From an uncultured SAR86 cluster bacterium (GTDB lineage Bacteria; Pseudomonadota; Gammaproteobacteria; Magnimaribacterales; D2472), in assembly GCA_902610905.1 (NCBI GenBank), contig CACLXS010000002.1, forward strand, positions 103,808 through 141,025: DNA of 37,218 nucleotides. Direction: 5' to 3'. Under the pieces are notes generated by a model. The model was not told the origin of the DNA. It did not search any database and was given only the letters and a program-made list of their open reading frames with translations. Position 1 is the stretch's first letter. Every line of letters starts with the position of its first letter. Both the position numbers and the translations under genes were made by a program. Positions 11,533 through 35,119 of this stretch are shown in pieces.

Positions 11533-12405
11533 ATGAATAGAGCTTTATTAACACTTCTTGTGGGTTTTTGGAAACTTATATTGTTTCTTCCAAGACCTTT
11601 GCATAAGGTCTTTATATTAATTTTAGGTAATCTGCTTTATATCATCCCTCTTAAAAGAAATAAGATAAGTAGAAAAAATATTGATCTTTGTTTTCCGGAT
11701 ATGTCAAAAAGGAAAAGAAAAAATCTTCATAAAGCTAATGTAATTGCTTCTGCTCAAATAATTTTTGATTCAGGTATTGCCTGGTTCTGGTCTGATGAAA
11801 AAATTAAAAAAAATATTAATTACGAAATAAAAGGTATCGAATCTCTTGTTAATGAACAAAAAAATAATAATGGTGTCCTTTTATTTTTTAAACATTCGCT
11901 CCATCTTGAACTTGATGCAAGGTTGCTGGGTATGAATAGTGAGGTTTATGGTGTAGAGAGAGTTCATAATTCAGACTTGTTTAATGCCATCCAAACAAAA
12001 GGAAGATTAAAAAGTGTAAAAGATACTTGTGATAAAAATAATCCTATTAAATTTATAAGATGGCTTAAAAAAGGCAAAACCGTTCTTTATGCGACAGATC
12101 AAGATTATGGATTAAATCAGTCAGATGTTATTAATTTTTTTGGTCAGCCAGCTGCAACAATATCAGCTCCTTCTAAAATCATTAATACAACTAGTTGTAA
12201 AACATATTTTGTGAACACTTACATAGATTCAGGTAAATATATTATTGATATAGAAGAGTTGAACCTAAATCACCTGAATGGATCAAATTTTTCTCAAAGC
12301 TTAAATGACTTTATGGAGAAAAAAATTAGAAACAATCCTGATGAATATTTATGGCAACACCGAAGATTCAAATCAACGCTTGGTAAAAAAGACTTTTATG
12401 CATGA
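11533..12405 (+). CDS. LpxL/HtrB-type lipid A acyltransferase
   Basis: Member of the LpxL/LpxM/MsbB acyltransferase family, which transfers a secondary acyl chain to Kdo-lipid IVA. The N terminus has a membrane-associated segment (about 5-40) ending at Lys/Arg-rich KRNKISRKNIDLCFP, a family hallmark. The catalytic HX4E motif is HSLHLE (H121, E126). Later come TDQDYG and a FFGQPA motif, matching the DQDYG/FFG signature. At 290 residues it is close to the usual 300-310. Whether it acts as LpxL, LpxM or LpxP cannot be decided. It is divergent from waaA and overlaps the next gene by 8 nt. Confidence 0.9.
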   Translation: MNRALLTLLVGFWKLILFLPRPLHKVFILILGNLLYIIPLKRNKISRKNIDLCFPDMSKRKRKNLHKANVIASAQIIFDSGIAWFWSDEKIKKNINYEIKGIESLVNEQKNNNGVLLFFKHSLHLELDARLLGMNSEVYGVERVHNSDLFNAIQTKGRLKSVKDTCDKNNPIKFIRWLKKGKTVLYATDQDYGLNQSDVINFFGQPAATISAPSKIINTTSCKTYFVNTYIDSGKYIIDIEELNLNHLNGSNFSQSLNDFMEKKIRNNPDEYLWQHRRFKSTLGKKDFYA

Positions 12406-13012
12406 AAATTTGACTGATTTCGATTCTATAAAAGGTTTTTTAGATCACGAAGAAGGCATCCTTTTATATAAAATGGCTAAAAAATATTGTATTAAAACTT
12501 TTGCAGTTGAGATTGGGTCTTATTGCGGAAAATCAGCATGCTATATCGGTATGGGATGCAAAGAAAATAGAACTCATCTTTTAACAATTGACCATCACAG
12601 GGGGTCCGAAGAACAACAGTATGGAGAAGAATATTTTGATCCAGAAGAATATGATTATGAAAAAGAAAGGGTTGATACTTTACCAAGCTTATTAAAAAAT
12701 ATATCTAGGTTTCAATTAGATGAATATATTAAAGTCATGGTTGGAACATCTAAATCTGCATCAGAAAAAATAAAGAATGAAATAGATTTTTTATTCATTG
12801 ATGGTAGCCATACTTTTGAATCAGCAAGAGCTGATTACGAATCATGGAAAGAAAAAATTAGGGTTGGAGGCATTCTTACAATTCATGACATCTATGACTC
12901 TGAACTTGAAGGTGGGCAGGCTCCTAGAGAAATATTTAAAAAAGCTCTAGAAGAAAATTTTAAATTTGTAGATAGAGTTAAAAGTTTAGTTGCTCTTGAA
13001 AAAATTTCCTAA
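12398..13012 (+). CDS. Class I SAM-dependent methyltransferase (Methyltransf_24-like)
   Basis: A 204-residue protein with a Rossmann-type SAM fold. Motif I is VEIGSYCGKSACYIG, an acidic residue follows in LLTIDHHRG, and the later IDFLFIDGSHTFESARADYESW is typical of the Methyltransf_24 family. RVGGILTIHDI is the final strand region. The substrate is unknown; relatives often occur in glycan and natural-product clusters. I chose the ATG at 12398, which overlaps the LpxL-like stop by 8 nt (ATGCATGA). An in-frame ATG at 12305 would add 31 residues but overlap the upstream gene by 101 nt. Its 3' end overlaps the convergent toroid gene by 27 nt. Confidence 0.8.
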   Translation: MHENLTDFDSIKGFLDHEEGILLYKMAKKYCIKTFAVEIGSYCGKSACYIGMGCKENRTHLLTIDHHRGSEEQQYGEEYFDPEEYDYEKERVDTLPSLLKNISRFQLDEYIKVMVGTSKSASEKIKNEIDFLFIDGSHTFESARADYESWKEKIRVGGILTIHDIYDSELEGGQAPREIFKKALEENFKFVDRVKSLVALEKIS

Positions 13013-13978
13013 TTCTAGAAAGACATTAACAGAGGATTCATTAGGGCCTAAATCATAGAAAGATAAGGCATGAGCTGCAATAATTACAGCGGCATTTGTC
13101 CAAGTTGAATTCTCCTCTGGCCAAAAGATTTCCATATCATATTGATATCCTGTTGGAAAAATTCCATCTTTATCTTGAAATTGCTGAATATCATTAAATA
13201 TCTCTTTTGCAATGTTTTCATTGCCATGTATTAATGCAGATATTACACATTCAGAACTCTCGGCGATTGTTACCCATGGCTCTTCAGCAACACACTTTAC
13301 TCCAAGTCCCTTGATATAGTATTTATCTAACGATTCTAAAAATTCATTCTTGTTATTTTTTATGCCAGCTAAAAAAGGATAATAAAAATCCATCGAGAAT
13401 CTAGATCTATCAATACCATCCCTATTAAATTTTTCTTGCCACATGTTGATTTTAAATTCAGGAAAACTTTTATTTTTTGCAACCAAAGATAGGAAGATAG
13501 ACATAGAAGCAGTAATTAATGAATTATCCGAATATCCATTACAATCTTTTGCCCAATAAAAATAACCATCTTGATCTTTAAAGTCATTGAGAGTTTCAAA
13601 AATATTTTCAAGCTTTATAAGTTGTTCATTAGTAAGAATTTTATTGTAATCTTGATCTTGATCAATCAAGTTCGCTTGGATAAGGGGTATGATAATGTAT
13701 GGAGCATGATGACTTTCATAGTGAAGTTTTGTTGGTTTTTCGTTGATAAATTCAGCATAAATTAACCCATCTTCATTAAGGTTTGTAAAAAACCAATTTA
13801 CGCCTCTCCAAAAAGAATCCCATTCTTCATATATAGCCAATGCTATTAAACATTCACAATGATCCCAAGGATCACATTTACCCTGTTCATCCCATAAAAT
13901 TGCACCACTTGATGATTGGTTTGTAATAATCCAATTTTTAGATGGCTCAAATTTTTTCTTATAATCCAACCAATTCAT
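12986..13978 (-). CDS. Alpha/alpha-toroid protein (prenyltransferase/squalene-oxidase-repeat-like)
   Basis: A soluble 330-residue protein with no signal peptide. Its pattern suggests an alpha/alpha toroid: recurring turns with DG (LNEDGLIYAEF near 67-77, DQDGYFYW near 135-142, DKDGIFPTGYQYD near 269-281) between helices. Polar conserved-looking clusters are DPWDHCE at 36-42, AEEPWVTIAESSE at 231-243 and WTNAA at 293-297. From memory, similar proteins labelled prenyltransferase occur in actinobacteria beside a GT4 glycosyltransferase and a class I methyltransferase, the same company as here. True prenyltransferase activity is not shown; a glycan- or lipid-modifying role is inference. It overlaps the upstream methyltransferase by 4 nt (ATGA). 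Confidence 0.7.
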   Translation of the reverse strand: MNWLDYKKKFEPSKNWIITNQSSSGAILWDEQGKCDPWDHCECLIALAIYEEWDSFWRGVNWFFTNLNEDGLIYAEFINEKPTKLHYESHHAPYIIIPLIQANLIDQDQDYNKILTNEQLIKLENIFETLNDFKDQDGYFYWAKDCNGYSDNSLITASMSIFLSLVAKNKSFPEFKINMWQEKFNRDGIDRSRFSMDFYYPFLAGIKNNKNEFLESLDKYYIKGLGVKCVAEEPWVTIAESSECVISALIHGNENIAKEIFNDIQQFQDKDGIFPTGYQYDMEIFWPEENSTWTNAAVIIAAHALSFYDLGPNESSVNVFLELGNFFKSN

Positions 13979-14679
13979 TTTTTTGTAAAATAAAAAGAAA
14001 TGCTTTTACCTAGGATTGGATTCAGTAATTTATCAATAAAATCTATCCATTTTGGTTTTTTAAGAATATGTAATTCAAGAAATTTTTTATACCAACTTAC
14101 TAAAAAATTTGAATCTTGGCTTTTCCAGAACAAACATCTCAACCACCAGTATGCAGAGTGAATAGAATGAAATCTTTCTGATGCATCAAAAATAAAACCT
14201 TTTTTTGTAATATCTTTAACTAGTGATTTTTTTTTGAAGATTCTTAAATGTCCTCCAGGTTGATTCTGATATTCTTTAGACAACATCCAACAAATTTTTT
14301 CTGGGAATTCTGCTGGAACACTTGCAAGAAACTTTCCTCCAGGTTTTAAAACTCGAAAAATTTCATCTATGGCATGTCTATATTCATGAAGATGTTCTAA
14401 TACTTCAGAACATATTATTAAATCAAACGTATTATTTTTAAATGGTAACTTATAGGCTGAACCGCTCAAAAAAGATGTTTGGTTATTAGAGATTGATTCA
14501 AAATATTCTAATCCTTCTAATGATTTATCCAAAGATTCCAAATGAGGATCAAGACCTACACATTGAATATTTGGAAATGACTCCATGACCGCAAAAACAT
14601 GCCTACCCTCACCGCAGCCTAAATCAAGCATTATGCCATGGTCAGGTAATTGTATTTTTGATAAATCAAAGGTTAGCAT
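13975..14679 (-). CDS. Class I SAM-dependent methyltransferase
   Basis: A 234-residue methyltransferase of the Methyltransf_11 type. Motif I is LDLGCGEGRH at 18-27, the acidic SAM ribose ligand is probably D44 in VGLDPH, and motif post-II reads FDLIICSEVLEHL at 85-97. FRVLKPGGKFLASVP follows. The C-terminal region (about 170-234) is aromatic and basic, perhaps membrane-associated. It is the middle gene of a tight trio: its ATG overlaps the GT4 stop by 7 nt (ATGCTAA) and its stop overlaps the toroid start by 4 nt. Substrate unknown; a sugar or lipid-linked sugar product of the GT4 enzyme is a reasonable inference. Confidence 0.85.
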   Translation of the reverse strand: MLTFDLSKIQLPDHGIMLDLGCGEGRHVFAVMESFPNIQCVGLDPHLESLDKSLEGLEYFESISNNQTSFLSGSAYKLPFKNNTFDLIICSEVLEHLHEYRHAIDEIFRVLKPGGKFLASVPAEFPEKICWMLSKEYQNQPGGHLRIFKKKSLVKDITKKGFIFDASERFHSIHSAYWWLRCLFWKSQDSNFLVSWYKKFLELHILKKPKWIDFIDKLLNPILGKSISFYFTKK

Positions 14680-15920
14680 TTATGAAAATCATTAATGGTT
14701 TTACTAATTATATCCTCATATTCTTCAGTAATTTTTAACCAATTAAAATTATCAATAATATGCTGCCTTCCCTTTACTGCAATTTTTTTATAGTGTGAAT
14801 AATCATTCAAAATACTTCTGATTGAGTTGGATAGTTCATTCGTATTTTTTGGTGGAATTAACCTTGCATAATCACCAACCAATTCTGGAATCGAAGAAGC
14901 GTTAGTAGCAATTAAAGGAATTTCACAACTCATTGCTTCAATAACGGGATATCCAAAGCCCTCATATAGTGAGCTCACAATTGCTATTGAGCTGGATGCA
15001 TACTCTTTTGCTATTTCTTCTTTTGTTAAATCAGTCTTAAAAAAAACTTTATCTTTTATGCCTAATTCATCAATTAGTCTTGATGTATGACCACCCTTTT
15101 TTAATTTTCCAATGACCGTGAGTGAAATTTCTGGAAAATCATCAGTTAAGCTTTCGAGCGATTTTAATGAATAGTCCAAGCCTTTAAGAGCTACATCAGC
15201 ACTTGCAGTTGTGATAAGTTTTGTTGGATTTCTTTTAATTTCGTTGTATGGAATAAAGATATCAATATCTAGACCATTATTGATAACATTTATATTTTCT
15301 TTGTTTACACTAAAGTCACTTGCAATATCTTTACGAGAGTTAAATGATGGTGTAACTATTTTTTTTAATTGTGGTGCTACCTTTTTTTGCATTTTCAAGA
15401 ATGAATACCATCTATGCCTTGAAAGTCTGTACATAAGACTTCTATTTGACTGCAGCTCAAATTTATAATCTTTTGTTATTGGATGATGAATTATTTCGAG
15501 TAAAGGAAATTTTTTTTGGATTTCAAGCAATCCATAACTTATCGATTGATTATCAATAACAATATCAAACTGATTATTGATATCTAAAAACTTTTTAGCT
15601 CTTTCACCAAAAGTTCTCATTTCTGGGAATCCTCCAAAAAAAGTCGAAAAAAATTCATAGAAATCTATAGCTCTTTTATTTTTTTTATTTATAAAAATTT
15701 TTAACCGATCTTTAAAAGAAAAGGTTTGAAATAAGTCCAGCCCTGGCAATTTTATTAAATTTACTTTTTCATCTAGATTTGGATATGGCGGACCCGATAT
15801 CACATCAACTTGATGCCCCTTATATGAAAGTGCTTTTGATATATCATGGATATAGATACCCTGACCCCCACCAAAAGGTGCACTTCTGTAACTTAGTATT
15901 GCTATGTTAAGTTTTTGCAA
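14673..15920 (-). CDS. GT4-family glycosyltransferase
   Basis: A 415-residue GT-B fold glycosyltransferase. The acceptor-side N terminus reads AILSYRSAPFGGGQGIYIHDI, with the glycine-rich loop at 17-23. The donor-side half has TTASADVALKGLDY near 238-250 and the EX7E motif YEGFGYPVIEAM with E320 and E328. No signal peptide or membrane span is seen, so it works on the cytoplasmic side. The start is TTG at 15918-15920, five bases after the ilvE stop; no ATG alternative exists near the conserved N terminus. It is the first gene of the glycosyltransferase-methyltransferase-toroid trio. Donor and acceptor are unknown. Confidence 0.9.
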   Translation of the reverse strand: MQKLNIAILSYRSAPFGGGQGIYIHDISKALSYKGHQVDVISGPPYPNLDEKVNLIKLPGLDLFQTFSFKDRLKIFINKKNKRAIDFYEFFSTFFGGFPEMRTFGERAKKFLDINNQFDIVIDNQSISYGLLEIQKKFPLLEIIHHPITKDYKFELQSNRSLMYRLSRHRWYSFLKMQKKVAPQLKKIVTPSFNSRKDIASDFSVNKENINVINNGLDIDIFIPYNEIKRNPTKLITTASADVALKGLDYSLKSLESLTDDFPEISLTVIGKLKKGGHTSRLIDELGIKDKVFFKTDLTKEEIAKEYASSSIAIVSSLYEGFGYPVIEAMSCEIPLIATNASSIPELVGDYARLIPPKNTNELSNSIRSILNDYSHYKKIAVKGRQHIIDNFNWLKITEEYEDIISKTINDFHKC

Positions 15921-15925
15921 AATAA

Positions 15926-16849
15926 TTAACTAAAGACTTTGCTTAACCAGTCTTTATAATTATTATTTCTACCACTTACAATATCGACATAAGCAGTTTG
16001 GAGCTTCTCTGTTATTGGGCCAATTGACCCTGATCCAATTAAAATTTCATCAACTTTAGAAATCGGAGTGATTTCAACAGCAGTACCAGTAAAGAATACT
16101 TCATCACTGCTAACTAGTTCTTCAAAAGTTATATCTTTTTCAGTAACTTCAAAACCAAAATCTTCTGCAATCTTTATAACTGATTGTCTAGTAATTCCAT
16201 TTAAACAGTGATCTGTTTTAGGGGTGCTAATCTTATTAGCTTTAACAATAAAAATATTTTCCCCACTTCCCTCAGAAATATAACCATTTTTATCTAAAAG
16301 CAAAGCTTCATCAGCGCCTTTAGAAAGTGCCTCATGAAGTGCCATAGTTGAATTTATATAAGTTCCTATAATCTTATATCCTGAATGAATAGGATTGCTG
16401 TATTGTTCAAATGAAGATTTAATAATAGATATTCCATTTTTTTTAGCCTCTGGACTCATATATGAAGGCCACTCCCATGCAGCTATAGCAACATTTACGG
16501 ATAATTCTGTTGCTCTTATGCCCAAAGACTCGCTTCCTAAGAAAACGATTGGCCTTAGATAGCCTTCATCGAGTTCATTCTTTATAAAAATATCTTTCTG
16601 TACTTTATTCAGTTCTTCAACTGAATAAGGTACATTTATTCCAATTTTATCAGCTGCTGAAAAAAGTCTTTCAGTATGATCGTTCAACCTAAAAATTGCT
16701 GGCCCTTTATCTGTTTTATATGCTCTTACACCCTCAAAAACACCAGTACCGTAATGGACTGTGTGAGAAAGTATATGCACAGAACTTTCATCCCATTTTT
16801 CATAGGTACCATTTTTCCATATATATTTTAAATCTGTATTTACAAACAT
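15926..16849 (-). CDS. ilvE: Branched-chain amino acid aminotransferase
   Basis: PLP enzyme of fold type IV that transaminates the keto acids of Val, Leu and Ile. The 307 residues match E. coli IlvE. Visible features are HYGTGVFEGVRAY near 32-44, the PLP Lys at 159 in SGYKIIGTYINS, and the NGYISEGSGENIF signature (about 188-200). DEVFFTGTAVEITPI lies toward the C terminus. It starts with ATG and faces the sugar mutase gene across 66 bases that contain an imperfect dyad. It may be transcribed together with the GT4 trio, since the next gene begins five bases after its stop. Confidence 0.95.
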   Translation of the reverse strand: MFVNTDLKYIWKNGTYEKWDESSVHILSHTVHYGTGVFEGVRAYKTDKGPAIFRLNDHTERLFSAADKIGINVPYSVEELNKVQKDIFIKNELDEGYLRPIVFLGSESLGIRATELSVNVAIAAWEWPSYMSPEAKKNGISIIKSSFEQYSNPIHSGYKIIGTYINSTMALHEALSKGADEALLLDKNGYISEGSGENIFIVKANKISTPKTDHCLNGITRQSVIKIAEDFGFEVTEKDITFEELVSSDEVFFTGTAVEITPISKVDEILIGSGSIGPITEKLQTAYVDIVSGRNNNYKDWLSKVFS

Positions 16850-16915: not shown

Positions 16916-18283
16916 ATGATCTTAGAGTCTATATTTCGTGAAAATGATATTAGAGGAACTTACCCAGAAGAATTAAATGAATCAGTTATTAAAGAAGTTG
17001 CAAAAGGAATTGCAAAAAAATGCTTTCAAGAAGATATTACCTCTATTGTTGTTGCTAGGGATGGAAGATTGTCAGGAGAGTCTTTGTTAACAACTTTTTG
17101 TGAAGCTATTTCACAATATGGTATAGATGTTAAAAACATTGGCCTAGCCACTAGTCCAATGCTTTATTTTGCAGCAAAAAAAGAAAATTCAAAAAGTGGA
17201 ATCATGATAACAGGTAGTCATAACCCTAAAAACTACAATGGAATCAAAATGGTTATTAATGATAATTCCGTTTCTGGCAGTGAAATCCTAAATCTCATCA
17301 AAAATGATGAGATTTTAAACGATTCATTAACAGGGAATATTATTTATAGTGACATAAAAGAAATGTATATCTCTGAAATCCTTGAGAATATCAAAACAGA
17401 ATTAAGTGAACTCAAAGTGGTAATTGATAGCGGTAATGGTGCTGCTGGTTTTGTCGCACCTGAGCTATTTAAAAGATTGGGTTGTAATGTGATTGAGCTT
17501 TATAGTGAAGTGGATGGAAATTTTCCTAATCATCACCCAGACCCTGGCAAATTAGATAATCTAGAAGATATTATCTATGAAGTTAAAGACAAAAACGCTG
17601 ATATTGGTTTTGCATTTGATGGAGATGGCGACCGAGTTGGTCTTATTACAAATTTAGGTGACATAATATTTCCTGATAAACAAATGATGTTATTTTCAGA
17701 AGATATTTTAAATAGTAAGAAAGGGTCTATTGTTTTTGATGTCAAATGCTCTAATCATTTAAGCAATTTAATTTTAAAAAATGGCGGAACTCCAATAATG
17801 GCACCTACTGGTCATTTTCATATTAAAAAAGCAATTAAAAAAAATAACGCTTTATTAGGTGGTGAAATGAGTGGTCATATCTTCTTTAACGATAAATGGT
17901 ATGGATTTGATGATGGTCCATATGCTGCTGTAAGAGCTGCAGAAATTCTTGCAAAATCAAATAAATCAATCTCAGATATTTTTAGAGAATTTCCAGAATC
18001 TTTCTCAACACCTGAGCTAAATATAACGGTTACTGATGAAAATAAATTTGAAATTATTGATAGATTTTTGACTAATTCTAATATTGATGGAGATAAAATC
18101 TTAATTGATGGATTAAGAGTAAATTTTAATGATGGATGGGGTCTTTTAAGGGCATCTAATACCTCTCCAAAGCTTGTAATGAGATTTGAAGGTGATACAA
18201 AAGAATCAATGAATAGAATACAAAATGAATTTATTTCAGAACTATCTCGCATTTGTCCTGAGATTGATATAAATTTAGATTAA
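16916..18283 (+). CDS. algC: Phosphomannomutase/phosphoglucomutase (AlgC/ManB type)
   Basis: Interconverts hexose 6-phosphates and 1-phosphates, feeding nucleotide sugars for LPS and surface glycans. The 455 residues show the whole family set: the FRENDIRG N terminus, the phosphoserine loop TGSHNPKNYNG with Ser101, and the magnesium loop DGDGDR with D235, D237 and D239. The sugar loop is GGEMSGH, and NTSPKLVMRFEG near the end is the phosphate-binding loop. A Shine-Dalgarno AAGGAAA lies about five bases before the ATG. It precedes a SlmA-type gene by 3 bases; in pseudomonads algC and slmA homologues also sit close together. Mannose versus glucose preference cannot be read from sequence. Confidence 0.93.
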   Translation: MILESIFRENDIRGTYPEELNESVIKEVAKGIAKKCFQEDITSIVVARDGRLSGESLLTTFCEAISQYGIDVKNIGLATSPMLYFAAKKENSKSGIMITGSHNPKNYNGIKMVINDNSVSGSEILNLIKNDEILNDSLTGNIIYSDIKEMYISEILENIKTELSELKVVIDSGNGAAGFVAPELFKRLGCNVIELYSEVDGNFPNHHPDPGKLDNLEDIIYEVKDKNADIGFAFDGDGDRVGLITNLGDIIFPDKQMMLFSEDILNSKKGSIVFDVKCSNHLSNLILKNGGTPIMAPTGHFHIKKAIKKNNALLGGEMSGHIFFNDKWYGFDDGPYAAVRAAEILAKSNKSISDIFREFPESFSTPELNITVTDENKFEIIDRFLTNSNIDGDKILIDGLRVNFNDGWGLLRASNTSPKLVMRFEGDTKESMNRIQNEFISELSRICPEIDINLD

Positions 18284-31221: not shown

Positions 31222-32193
31222 ATGACTGTTAATAAAAGCATTGAATTGGCTCTAAAACCAAACGAAAAAATAGAGGTATCTGACATTTTCAAAATTGATA
31301 CAAAGATTTCAGTTAAGCGATTTAAAGAAAAAACAGAATGGGTTCCAGAAATTGATGAAGGTTACATTTTTGACAAAGAAACAACATTATCAATTTTAGC
31401 AGGCTTTAGTCATAACAGAAGAGTAATGATTCAAGGCTTTCATGGAACAGGTAAATCTACTCATATAGAACAAATTGCTGCACGCTTGAACTGGCCTTGT
31501 GTAAGAATTAATTTAGATAGTCATATAAGCAGAATAGATTTGCTTGGTAAGGATGCAATAAAACTTAAGGACGGAAAACAAATAACTGAATTTCAAGAGG
31601 GCTTGCTCCCATGGTCTATACAAAATCCAGTTGCGCTTGTTTTTGATGAATATGATGCAGGAAGACCAGATGTAATGTTTGTAATACAAAGAATCCTTGA
31701 GGTAGAAGGTAAGTTAACGCTACTTGATCAAAATAAAGTAATTGAGCCTCACCCCTCTTTTAGATTATTTGCTACTACTAATACTGTAGGTCTTGGAGAT
31801 GTGACTGGCTTGTACCACGGAACACAACAAATTAATCAGGGTCAAATGGATAGATGGCATATCTTATCTACCTTAAATTATCTTGATGTTGATCAAGAAC
31901 TTAAAGTAATTTTATCTAAAGTTGGAGATATGAAAACAATTAAACATCAGGAGGTCATTAAAAATATGATTAAACTTGCAAATCTAACAAGAAATGGTTT
32001 TGCTAATGGAGATATATCAACACTAATGTCACCTAGAACAGTCATATCGTGGGCTGAGAACTATAAAATTTTTAAGGATATAAGAGACTCCTTTAAATTG
32101 ACGTTCTTAAATAAATGCGATGATTTAGAAAAACCAATTGTTAATGAGTATTTCCAAAGATGTTTTGATATTGATATTAACGAAAGCTCTTAA
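31222..32193 (+). CDS. cobS: CobS-type AAA+ ATPase (MoxR-like)
   Basis: AAA+ motor of the aerobic cobaltochelatase family, 323 residues. Walker A is GFHGTGKST (72-80), Walker B is VFDEYDAG with D142 and E143, sensor 1 is ATTN (N187), and the arginine-finger region is GQMDRW (R211). Long stretches such as GFSHNRRVMIQGFHGTGKST and IQRILEVEGKLTLLDQN match alphaproteobacterial CobS closely. CobS works with CobT and the large subunit CobN, which is not in this window. It is followed after 6 bases by cobT. Either CobN lies elsewhere, or the pair serves another metal-insertion or chaperone role. Confidence 0.88.
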   Translation: MTVNKSIELALKPNEKIEVSDIFKIDTKISVKRFKEKTEWVPEIDEGYIFDKETTLSILAGFSHNRRVMIQGFHGTGKSTHIEQIAARLNWPCVRINLDSHISRIDLLGKDAIKLKDGKQITEFQEGLLPWSIQNPVALVFDEYDAGRPDVMFVIQRILEVEGKLTLLDQNKVIEPHPSFRLFATTNTVGLGDVTGLYHGTQQINQGQMDRWHILSTLNYLDVDQELKVILSKVGDMKTIKHQEVIKNMIKLANLTRNGFANGDISTLMSPRTVISWAENYKIFKDIRDSFKLTFLNKCDDLEKPIVNEYFQRCFDIDINESS

Positions 32194-32199
32194 AATTCT

Positions 32200-33957
32200 A
32201 TGAGTTGGGTAAAGCATAGGGATAAATTACATGAAGCAGCGCTTTCATCCATAAAGTCAATTTCAAAAATTAAGACTATTACCTCTAAAAATGGTATTCC
32301 ACAAAGACCTCCTTCCTTTAATCAAGCAATATTAACTTCAACACCACGCTCTACAAAAGATTTACCATCATGGAGAGGAGAAGCTGATTTTCAAGCTTTT
32401 TGGTATTTATTTCATAAAACTAAGCCTGATGTTGATCTTAGTATGCCTGCACGAATTGTTTTTAATGAGCTTGAGATGTCACGTGTTGAAATTTTGGGAT
32501 CTAGCTATTACAAAGGTTCTCAAACTAATATCACTGAATATCTTAAAACAATAAATATTGATGATAAAAAATCGCCACATTATTTAGCTTTATGCTCAAA
32601 TCTTTGGCTTAAGGATGCTTGTGGCATACATTTATCTACATCATTGAAGAAGCTTTTAAAAGAATTTAATGAAGAATATGCTGTAAACAATGCGTTAGAT
32701 AATGTTAAAAATTACTTAATTTCTTCATTAAATGATCAAGATAAATTTCAAAAAGCTTCCTTGGATTTTTTGAGAAAAATAAAACTTCTTAAATCGATTA
32801 AAGATAACAATATTGAGGAGGAGGAAGCAATAGAATCACCAGGAAGTACAGATGATATTGAAGATGAAACTGAGAGCTCTAATAACAATGAATTGGGAGA
32901 TGGTGAAGCATCCCTAGATGATTTAAACATGGATTACGAAAATATCGAGCAGACCTCAGAAATGACAGATGGTACTGCTGTTGATGAAGAAATTGATATG
33001 CTGGCTTACCCAAATAATGACTATGTACTTTCAAATAAAAATTATTCTATATTCACCAAAGAATATGATGAAATAATTGAAGCAAGAGACCTTACAACTC
33101 CTGATGAGGCTATTAGACTTAGAACACAATTAGATAATCTAATAAAACCATATCAAGCTACTATAGGAAGGCTAGCAAATAAACTACAAAGATTATTGTT
33201 AGCTCAACAAAATACGAGCTGGAATTATAATCTTGAGGAAGGAATGCTCGATACTGCAAGGCTTCATAGAGTAATAGCAAAGCCAGGATATCCGTTAAGT
33301 TTTAAACAAGAAACTGAAAATAATTTTAAAGATACTATTGTTAGTCTGCTAATAGATAATTCAGGCTCAATGAGAGGTAGGTCAATAAGTCTAGCAGCAA
33401 TTTGTACAGACATAATTGGTAGTACTTTAGAGCGATGTCAAATTAAAACAGAAGTTTTAGGCTTTACTACAAAAAACTGGAAAGGTGGAGATTCAAAACA
33501 AAAATGGATAAAGCAAGGTAGTCAAATGAATCCTGGTCGACTGAATGACATTCGACATATTATCTATAAAAGCGCGGATAATAGCTGGAGAAGATCAAGA
33601 AAACACTTTGGCGCTATGCTCAGGGAGGGTCTTTTAAAAGAAAATATAGATGGTGAAGCATTGATTTGGTCTCACGAAAGACTAATTACTAGAAATGAGG
33701 ACAGAAGGATCCTTATTGTTATATCAGATGGAGCTCCAGTTGATGATAGTACCCTATCTGCAAATAATGAAGAATATTTAGATAATCACCTTAAAAAAGT
33801 TATTTATGAAATCGAGAATGATAGTCCAATTGAATTACAAGCAATTGGAATTGGGCATGATGTGACTAAGTATTATGAGAATGCTATTACTATAAATAGA
33901 GCTGAAGAGCTTGGTGAGGTTCTTCTTGATCAGTTAACAAAACTTTTCAAAAATTAA
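32200..33957 (+). CDS. cobT: CobT-type VWA protein (cobaltochelatase subunit)
   Basis: The 585-residue partner of CobS. An N-terminal helical region is followed by an acidic low-complexity stretch (about 205-265, rich in Glu, Asp and Ser). The C-terminal von Willebrand A domain has the MIDAS motif DNSGS at 386-390 and [13 protein letters not shown] further on. [15 protein letters not shown] and [12 protein letters not shown] follow alphaproteobacterial CobT almost word for word. CobS-CobT form stacked rings that drive cobalt insertion by CobN in Pseudomonas denitrificans-type cobalamin synthesis. No other cobalamin gene is present here. The downstream 55 bases carry a promoter candidate and palindrome for the next gene. 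Confidence 0.88.
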
Positions 33958-34012: not shown

Positions 34013-35119
34013 ATGAAAATTAAAAAGCAAGACGGACCACCAAAGGATTTATTATATTTTGATGACGAGGTAAATTTAACGCCATTACAAGTAGAAGACG
34101 TAGTTGAAATATTTAACACTCCTCTAACTGGTTCATATAATTGGGACTATACAGTAGCTGATAATAGGATTAAAAAGCTATATGAGCTTGGAAAAGAGTT
34201 AAATTGGAATGGATCAATAGATCTTAAGTGGGATTATACCCACCCTGCTGACCAAAAAATTATTGAGCCTGATGAGCAGCTTCCACACGAAACTCTTGAG
34301 GCATATGAAAATCTTACTGAGGAAGAAAAAATCTTATTCGATCGTCACTCAACTGCAGAATTAATGAGTCAATTTTTGCATGGTGAACAAGGGGCGCTTT
34401 TAGTTGCTTCACAATTAGCATCCTGTGCTCCTACCTATAATGCAAAACTATACGCTGCATCACAAACATTTGATGAAGCTAGGCATGTTGAAGTTTTCAA
34501 TAGATATCTTCAAGAAAAAATAGGTATTCATTATCCAATAAACCCTGCTCTAAAAACTTTACTCGATAAAATTCTTACAGATGAGCGCTGGGACTTAAAA
34601 TTTATTGGTATGCAAATAATCATTGAAGGCTTAGCTCTAGCTGCCTTCCAAATGTTAAAGACTATAACTAAAGATCCTCTATTAAAACAATTGCTGCATT
34701 ATGTAGTTAGAGATGAAGCTAGACATGTTACTTTTGGAATTAATTATCTTGAGGACTATATTAAAACTCTTTCTCAAGAGGAAATTGAAGACAGAGCTGA
34801 GTTTGCATATGAGGCTTGTGTTATTTCCAGAGAGAGGTTAATAAATACCAAATCAGAACAAAGATTTTTAGGGATGTCCCCTGATGAAGCAAGAGAATTT
34901 CAATTAAATACTGCAACTTTTGATATGTTCAGAAATTTCTTATTCTCAAGAGTGATACCTAATCTCTCAAGAATAGGACTTTTAACTGAAAAAGTTCGTC
35001 CAAAATTTGAAGCTCTTGGGCTGCTTGAATATGAGCATGCTCCTGATGATTTTGAATGCGATTGGACTGAACTAAAAAAACCGCTAGAAGCTTTTGATAA
35101 AATTCCTGAAGCAATCTAA
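34013..35119 (+). CDS. Ferritin-like di-iron protein (putative oxygenase/oxidoreductase)
   Basis: A 368-residue protein with a four-helix di-iron signature. The probable ligands are E125 (HGEQGALL), E155 and H158 (DEARH), E205 (IIEGLALA), and E235 and H238 (a second DEARH). This is the carboxylate pattern of ferritin-like oxygenases, ribonucleotide reductase R2-like and AurF-like proteins. No signal peptide is seen. The N-terminal 100 residues are acidic and not recognised. The substrate is unknown. A Shine-Dalgarno TTGGAG sits about five bases before the ATG, and the promoter area holds a perfect 19-bp palindrome, so expression is probably switched by a repressor. Confidence 0.8.
   Translation: MKIKKQDGPPKDLLYFDDEVNLTPLQVEDVVEIFNTPLTGSYNWDYTVADNRIKKLYELGKELNWNGSIDLKWDYTHPADQKIIEPDEQLPHETLEAYENLTEEEKILFDRHSTAELMSQFLHGEQGALLVASQLASCAPTYNAKLYAASQTFDEARHVEVFNRYLQEKIGIHYPINPALKTLLDKILTDERWDLKFIGMQIIIEGLALAAFQMLKTITKDPLLKQLLHYVVRDEARHVTFGINYLEDYIKTLSQEEIEDRAEFAYEACVISRERLINTKSEQRFLGMSPDEAREFQLNTATFDMFRNFLFSRVIPNLSRIGLLTEKVRPKFEALGLLEYEHAPDDFECDWTELKKPLEAFDKIPEAI

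Follow-up and report, generated by a model that had tools for sequence, protein, structure and literature searches.

What is made by an operon in which the genes for a family 4 glycosyltransferase (GT4), a methyltransferase and a toroid protein overlap one another, with the gene for a second methyltransferase converging on it? The question is raised by positions 12398–15920 of a stretch of 37,218 nucleotides (hereafter the window) of the 1.02-Mb genome of an uncultured SAR86 cluster bacterium (GenBank assembly GCA_902610905.1, contig CACLXS010000002.1), for which a preliminary description had proposed an undescribed methylated glycan or glycolipid pathway. The locus is probably a complete four-gene cluster for the synthesis and recycling of an intracellular polymethylated oligosaccharide of the methylmannose polysaccharide (MMP) type, kept across the SAR86 order, which is an abundant marine group. 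An MMP-type enzyme was the nearest solved relative, by a wide margin, of three of the four proteins, and the assignment is based on orthology, catalytic residues, fold, synteny and order-wide conservation, from which we infer the activities and the cellular role. The four genes were assigned as follows.

14673–15920, minus strand: ManT, GT4 glycosyltransferase, 415 amino acids, TTG start (phmmer match to 7QSG)
13975–14679, minus strand: pMeT3, class I S-adenosylmethionine methyltransferase (Methyltransf_11), putative 3-O-methyltransferase (PF08241 plus position)
12986–13978, minus strand: MmpH, predicted MMP endo-α-(1→4)-mannosidase, (α/α)6 toroid, 330 amino acids (7QSJ match)
12398–13012, plus strand: MeT1, predicted MMP 1-O-methyltransferase of the Methyltransf_24 family, 204 amino acids, ATG at 12398 (6G7D match)

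Mycobacterial MMP is a cytosolic polymer of 11–14 α-1,4-linked 3-O-methylmannoses; MmpH hydrolyses it to short oligomannosides, ManT lengthens these with GDP-mannose as donor, MeT1 caps the free reducing ends and pMeT3 is the putative 3-O-methyltransferase (PMC9883506). The toroid protein, in which no obvious catalytic family had been recognized, was assigned to no family by Pfam and NCBIfam searches. When compared with all solved structures using phmmer, its sole credible match was 7QSJ, the MmpH of M. hassiacum (1.1e-28). An AlphaFold2 model (predicted local distance difference test score 85, predicted template-modelling score 0.88) has an (α/α)6 barrel like that of 7QSJ, which was also ranked first by Foldseek (E 9e-21, template-modelling score 0.85, root-mean-square deviation 2.5), all other toroids being placed far behind. 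The (α/α)6 hydrolases of families GH15 and GH125 have the fold and a catalytic-base glutamate in common with it according to the comparison in PMC9883506, but GH125 members are exo-acting, unlike MmpH. The two polar clusters that had been noted as conserved-looking are real, are conserved across phyla and coincide with the active site: DPWDHCE holds Asp36, Trp38 and Asp39 (Asp47, Trp49 and Asp50 of M. hassiacum MmpH), and EPWVTIAESSE holds Glu240 and Glu243 (Glu262, the putative catalytic base, and Glu265). Trp293, Tyr200 and Met196 correspond to Trp315, Tyr219 and Met215, and Asp47, Glu262 and Glu265 were kept in all 122 MmpH homologues. Most of the activity is gone in the MmpH mutants D47A and D50A and all of it in E262A (PMC9883506). 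From its sequence and its model the toroid protein is identified as MmpH, with endo-cleavage predicted.

The GT4 protein matched 7QSG (ManT) at 6.7e-82 over residues 4–409, the next match in the Protein Data Bank (PDB) being at 2e-16, and was 38.6% identical to M. hassiacum ManT. His145, Lys246, Glu320 and Glu328 correspond to His142, Lys240, Glu313 and Glu321, GT4 residues kept in 112/112 homologues; judged by its sequence, the protein is ManT, the orthologue of the MMP α-(1→4)-mannosyltransferase. The convergent methyltransferase had 6G7D (MeT1) as its only PDB match (3.4e-40, 38.5% identity) and matched Pfam PF13578 at 5.6e-25, and its motifs DHHxGSEExQ, FIDGxHT and IHD were conserved across 105 homologues. 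Since it is MeT1, this gene is the fourth member of the cluster and no bystander, although it had earlier been set apart as a second methyltransferase; it is a core member that holds the same convergent position elsewhere. The middle methyltransferase is by profile a generic class I enzyme (PF08241, 3e-21). It is 34% identical to the gene in the same slot in Nonomuraea, adjoins mmpH in all 40 SAR86 loci and in 60/60 other, mostly gammaproteobacterial, loci, and occupies the slot of the putative MeT3.

The minus-strand overlaps of 7 nt (14673–14679) and 4 nt (13975–13978) are exact, with the reading frames as first described, and the proposed single translational unit is supported by the order of the trio, which was kept, far beyond chance, in all 40 SAR86 loci whose flanks were long enough. 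MeT1 was convergent and the quartet present in 40 of the 41 SAR86 loci examined; in the window the 3′ ends of meT1 and mmpH share 27 nt (12986–13012). The mycobacterial cluster meT1-mmpH-pmeT3-manT (M. hassiacum; PMC9883506; 6G7D, 7QSJ, 7QSG) comprises the four corresponding enzymes in the same gene order, and the catalytic residues and the fold are kept in SAR86; the identities, however, are just 28–39% and the host is a streamlined Gram-negative. The actinobacterium Nonomuraea (L036), the only MmpH carrier in the plasmid collection, has ManT, MeT3 and MmpH on one strand and MeT1 on the other, in the same order and with convergent MeT1 as in SAR86. The trio does recur in actinobacteria, as first described, whereas its product there is not unclear: it is methylmannose polysaccharide (PMC9883506).

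The window's genome belongs to the SAR86 order, within which genome G128 has an MmpH identical to that of SAR86 AG-343-L05. MmpH was found in 95/107 genomes of the window's family and in 172/199 of the SAR86 order, including 39 of the 40 near-complete ones; among other Gammaproteobacteria (genomes at least 85% complete) it was found in 4/365 (Fisher 1e-48 against the order), and in about 1% of the sample of the phylum Pseudomonadota, where weak profile matches (E 1e-5 to 1e-3, short, mostly inside longer open reading frames) were left uncounted. A scan of named genomes gave at least 586 confirmed relatives, of which 80 were kept. Among the matches listed were Halieaceae, Cellvibrionaceae, Microbulbifer, Spongiibacter, Endozoicomonas and SAR86, together with Parvibaculum and other Alphaproteobacteria, Syntrophaceae/Desulfatitalea and the haloarchaeon Natrinema gari. 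In the class of N. gari MmpH was present in 11/145 sampled genomes, in some on megabase contigs, and the haloarchaeal loci contained the trio without MeT1 (5/5). A scan of IMG/VR with the MmpH alignment gave no relative and therefore no sign of phage carriage. The MMP-type quartet is near-universal in SAR86, a broad occurrence of a known pathway beyond actinobacteria. In the MMP literature surveyed the polymer is described from actinobacteria only, the genomes searched in PMC9883506 being actinobacterial; homologues in Gram-negatives may have been mentioned before (MeT1 paper, 2019).

Within the order, SAR86 ManT forms a single clade (support 100), as does MeT3 of the window's family (support 99). 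MmpH of genera g1, g3 and g8, which include that of the window, nests on a long branch with family f4, and it is this clade that carries His/His at the Asn101/Phe102 subsite. Monophyly of the family's MmpH was rejected (approximately unbiased test, p 7.5e-14), for a grouping chosen after the identities had been seen; the MeT1 tree had the same pattern, with monophyly not rejected (p 0.16). The mosaic pattern was followed by comparing window 12986–13978 with L055, L064, L065, L066 and L076. MmpH thus sides with f4, and ManT and MeT3 with the window's own family, a mosaic that probably arose by exchange of mmpH, and perhaps of meT1 too, between lineages of the order.

By homology to mycobacteria, MmpH would cut mature chains, each of roughly twelve α-(1→4)-linked 3-O-methyl-hexoses, to defined short oligosaccharides, which ManT would extend with an NDP-hexose as donor (in mycobacteria, GDP-mannose); MeT3 would methylate O3 of every added unit and MeT1 the free reducing-end O1 produced by MmpH. 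As O1 of the reducing end would be methylated, the capped chain would be attached to nothing and would stay in the cytoplasm. Such glycans have been proposed to bind fatty acyl chains, sheltering fatty acyl-CoA, and to aid the growth of M. smegmatis in the cold, loss of MmpH slowing growth at 15 °C (PMC9883506).

Two further polymers belong beside this scheme. PMC9883506 names an acetylated MMP from Streptomyces griseus, which is a 3-O-methylmannose polymer of the same class, but the SAR86 cluster has no adjoining acyltransferase. At 19 other loci, in Gammaproteobacteria, Alphaproteobacteria, Desulfobacterota and SAR324 genomes, the cluster is adjoined by a hexapeptide-repeat acyltransferase of about 240 amino acids with the start MRxDHRPYxxKR [among them L153:9066-9788(+) and L078:6804-7526(+)], which, by analogy with the Streptomyces polymer, may acylate the product. 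At L153:9793-11373(+) and at six other Desulfobacterota/delta loci, mmpH and meT1 are separated by the gene for a B12-binding radical SAM protein. The methylglucose lipopolysaccharide pathway likewise combines a GT4 enzyme (Rv3032) and methyltransferases for a cytosolic polymethylated α-(1→4) glycan, but Rv3032 belongs to a different GT4 lineage (28–33% identity to ManT). We know of no MmpH or MeT1 homologue in that pathway.

Several observations weigh against a plain transfer of the mycobacterial scheme. The Asn101/Phe102 subsite of MmpH, which contacts or lines a bound glycerol, is His90/His91 in the window's clade; this is a subsite feature and not a catalytic one, and N/F is kept in SAR86 families f2 and f3. 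The guanine-contacting Asp293 of ManT is Lys300 in the window and is variable across the non-actinobacterial set. The 3-O-methylation by MeT3 is putative in SAR86 as it is in mycobacteria, where the activity of pMeT3 is likewise unproven (PMC9883506). In a set of 41 genomes from the order, 40 of which had a completeness of 90% or more, TIGR01479, a model that would overlook an archaeal-type guanylyltransferase, found a full-length ManC (GDP-mannose pyrophosphorylase) in 6/41; it was missing from 35/41, including four near-complete single-contig genomes (G049, G108, G112 and G115). ManC or its guanylyltransferase domain was present in 24/26 cluster-bearing genomes outside SAR86 (Fisher 1.5e-10). 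Finally, the lipids of haloarchaea are not fatty-acyl based. As these organisms carry the trio, a role as an acyl-CoA carrier is unlikely to be general.

These points bear mainly on the sugar. That the hexose of the SAR86 product is mannose is favoured, if not strongly. It is possible, and is offered here tentatively, that the whole order kept the MMP machinery at its core but GDP-mannose synthesis disappeared from most lineages, which now make a different polymethylated hexose chain or draw on an unrecognised GDP-mannose source, with a non-mycobacterial role. The specific alternative that, ManC being lost, ManT takes another NDP-hexose (UDP-glucose is the one most commonly available) and makes a methylglucan or mixed chain seems rather unlikely. 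It would suit the rarity of ManC beside a full-length GalU in about 33/41 genomes of the order, the ManC-free single-contig genomes, the loss of Asp293 and the altered MmpH subsite. However, M. hassiacum ManT uses only mannosyl acceptors (PMC9883506), the residues that bind mannosyl units are retained, the near-complete genomes G096, G098 and G012 lack GalU as well as ManC, the ManC-bearing SAR86 lineages have the same cluster, and GDP-mannose could come from an unrecognised guanylyltransferase.

Candidates for the donor step were sought with PF00483 in 11 genomes, which gave mainly GalU-, MurU-, GlmU- and RmlA-type reading frames and a few others of 350–370 amino acids; types were judged by length and score, one MurU being checked individually. 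That MurU-type nucleotidyltransferase (L176:1498-2169) was rejected as a GDP-mannose source: it matched MurU at 1.7e-42 and mannose-1-phosphate guanylyltransferase at 8.6e-19, and as MurU is its nearest solved relative and an APH-family (AmgK-like) kinase precedes it, a role in peptidoglycan recycling is likelier. The partial ManC match in the window's genome is due to a 255-amino-acid fusion of a cytidylyltransferase-like domain and a mannose-phosphate-isomerase cupin [PF01467 plus PF01050; L187:8448-9215(-), G000 contig 2]. Most SAR86 genomes without ManC contain reading frames of similar size that match this cupin, and the fusion is a clue to the NDP-sugar step that is missing.

Whichever the hexose, the MMP-type reading implies a free glycan, and the alternative that the trio builds a 3-O-methylmannan on lipid A, as a methylated core or O-chain of lipopolysaccharide (LPS), is improbable. 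The waaA/lpxL neighbourhood that had suggested a glycolipid is real (the ATG of meT1 shares 8 nt with the end of lpxL at 12405), waaA is nearby in 20 other gammaproteobacterial loci, LPS-core-like genes were identified by eye inside family f2 neighbourhoods, and 3-O-methylmannose O-chains do occur (Oligotropha, cited in PMC9883506). This neighbourhood was nevertheless encountered only in Gammaproteobacteria; the loci of Alphaproteobacteria, Desulfobacterota and actinobacteria had no recognizable waaA close to the cluster. None of the four proteins contained a hydrophobic stretch of the length or strength needed to span a membrane. The set shows no flippase or membrane-anchor features, and Pfam and NCBIfam identified no exporter, ligase or polymerase encoded by the four genes or by genes close to them in the window. 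An endo-hydrolase in the cytosol and an enzyme that methylates the reducing end are ill-suited to a lipid-anchored chain, as MeT1 would block the end through which glycans join lipid. Haloarchaea, which carry the trio, have no LPS. Provided that the enzymes retain their mycobacterial activities, the product is probably not a surface glycolipid. Of the pathway first proposed, the methylated glycan is supported and the surface glycolipid is not, and the product would not be an undescribed one, because the cluster matches the MMP enzymes by homology. That MmpH and its partners instead salvage imported methylated algal mannan is very improbable: SAR86 takes up polysaccharides and MmpH is a hydrolase, but the cluster has no TonB-dependent receptor, secretion signal or exo-glycosidase, and two co-conserved methyltransferases with a retaining GT4 are biosynthetic.

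The flanks of the MMP-type cluster in SAR86 (ilvE, pgm, lpxL and waaA) differ from those in M. hassiacum. Upstream of manT lie two genes.

15926–16849, minus strand: IlvE, branched-chain aminotransferase, not an MMP enzyme (NCBIfam PRK06606, 3e-116)
16916–18283, plus strand: phosphoglucomutase/phosphomannomutase, PgmG-like (NCBIfam NF046027, 430 bits, under the cut-off of 600)

As ilvE ends only 5 nt upstream of the manT start on the same strand, the co-directional unit is ilvE-manT-meT3-mmpH and ilvE is probably co-transcribed with manT. The two genes adjoin in families f1 and f4 and are apart in f2 and part of f3; in the f2 loci L059 (G122), L060 (G128) and L145 a second, weaker ManT-like glycosyltransferase stretch lies between them. 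The phosphomutase gene is syntenic across the order and possibly supplies hexose-1-phosphate for the NDP-sugar donor. Elsewhere in the window a CobS-like AAA ATPase [31222–32193(+)] adjoins a CobT-like VWA protein [32200–33957(+)], and an AurF-like (PF11583) di-iron oxygenase-family protein is encoded at 34013–35119(+), in a streamlined genome.

If the assignment is correct, MMP-type glycans would be a much wider class of polymer, the cluster being conserved in nearly all SAR86 and present in other marine Gammaproteobacteria, with the trio also in haloarchaea. The MMP literature ties the polymer to actinobacterial fatty-acid metabolism; on the tentative reading of a non-mycobacterial role, the trio of haloarchaea would likewise separate such glycans from the making of fatty acids. 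Culturable carriers (Spongiibacter, Microbulbifer, Pseudohalioglobus and Natrinema) would allow its biological role to be addressed by deletion.

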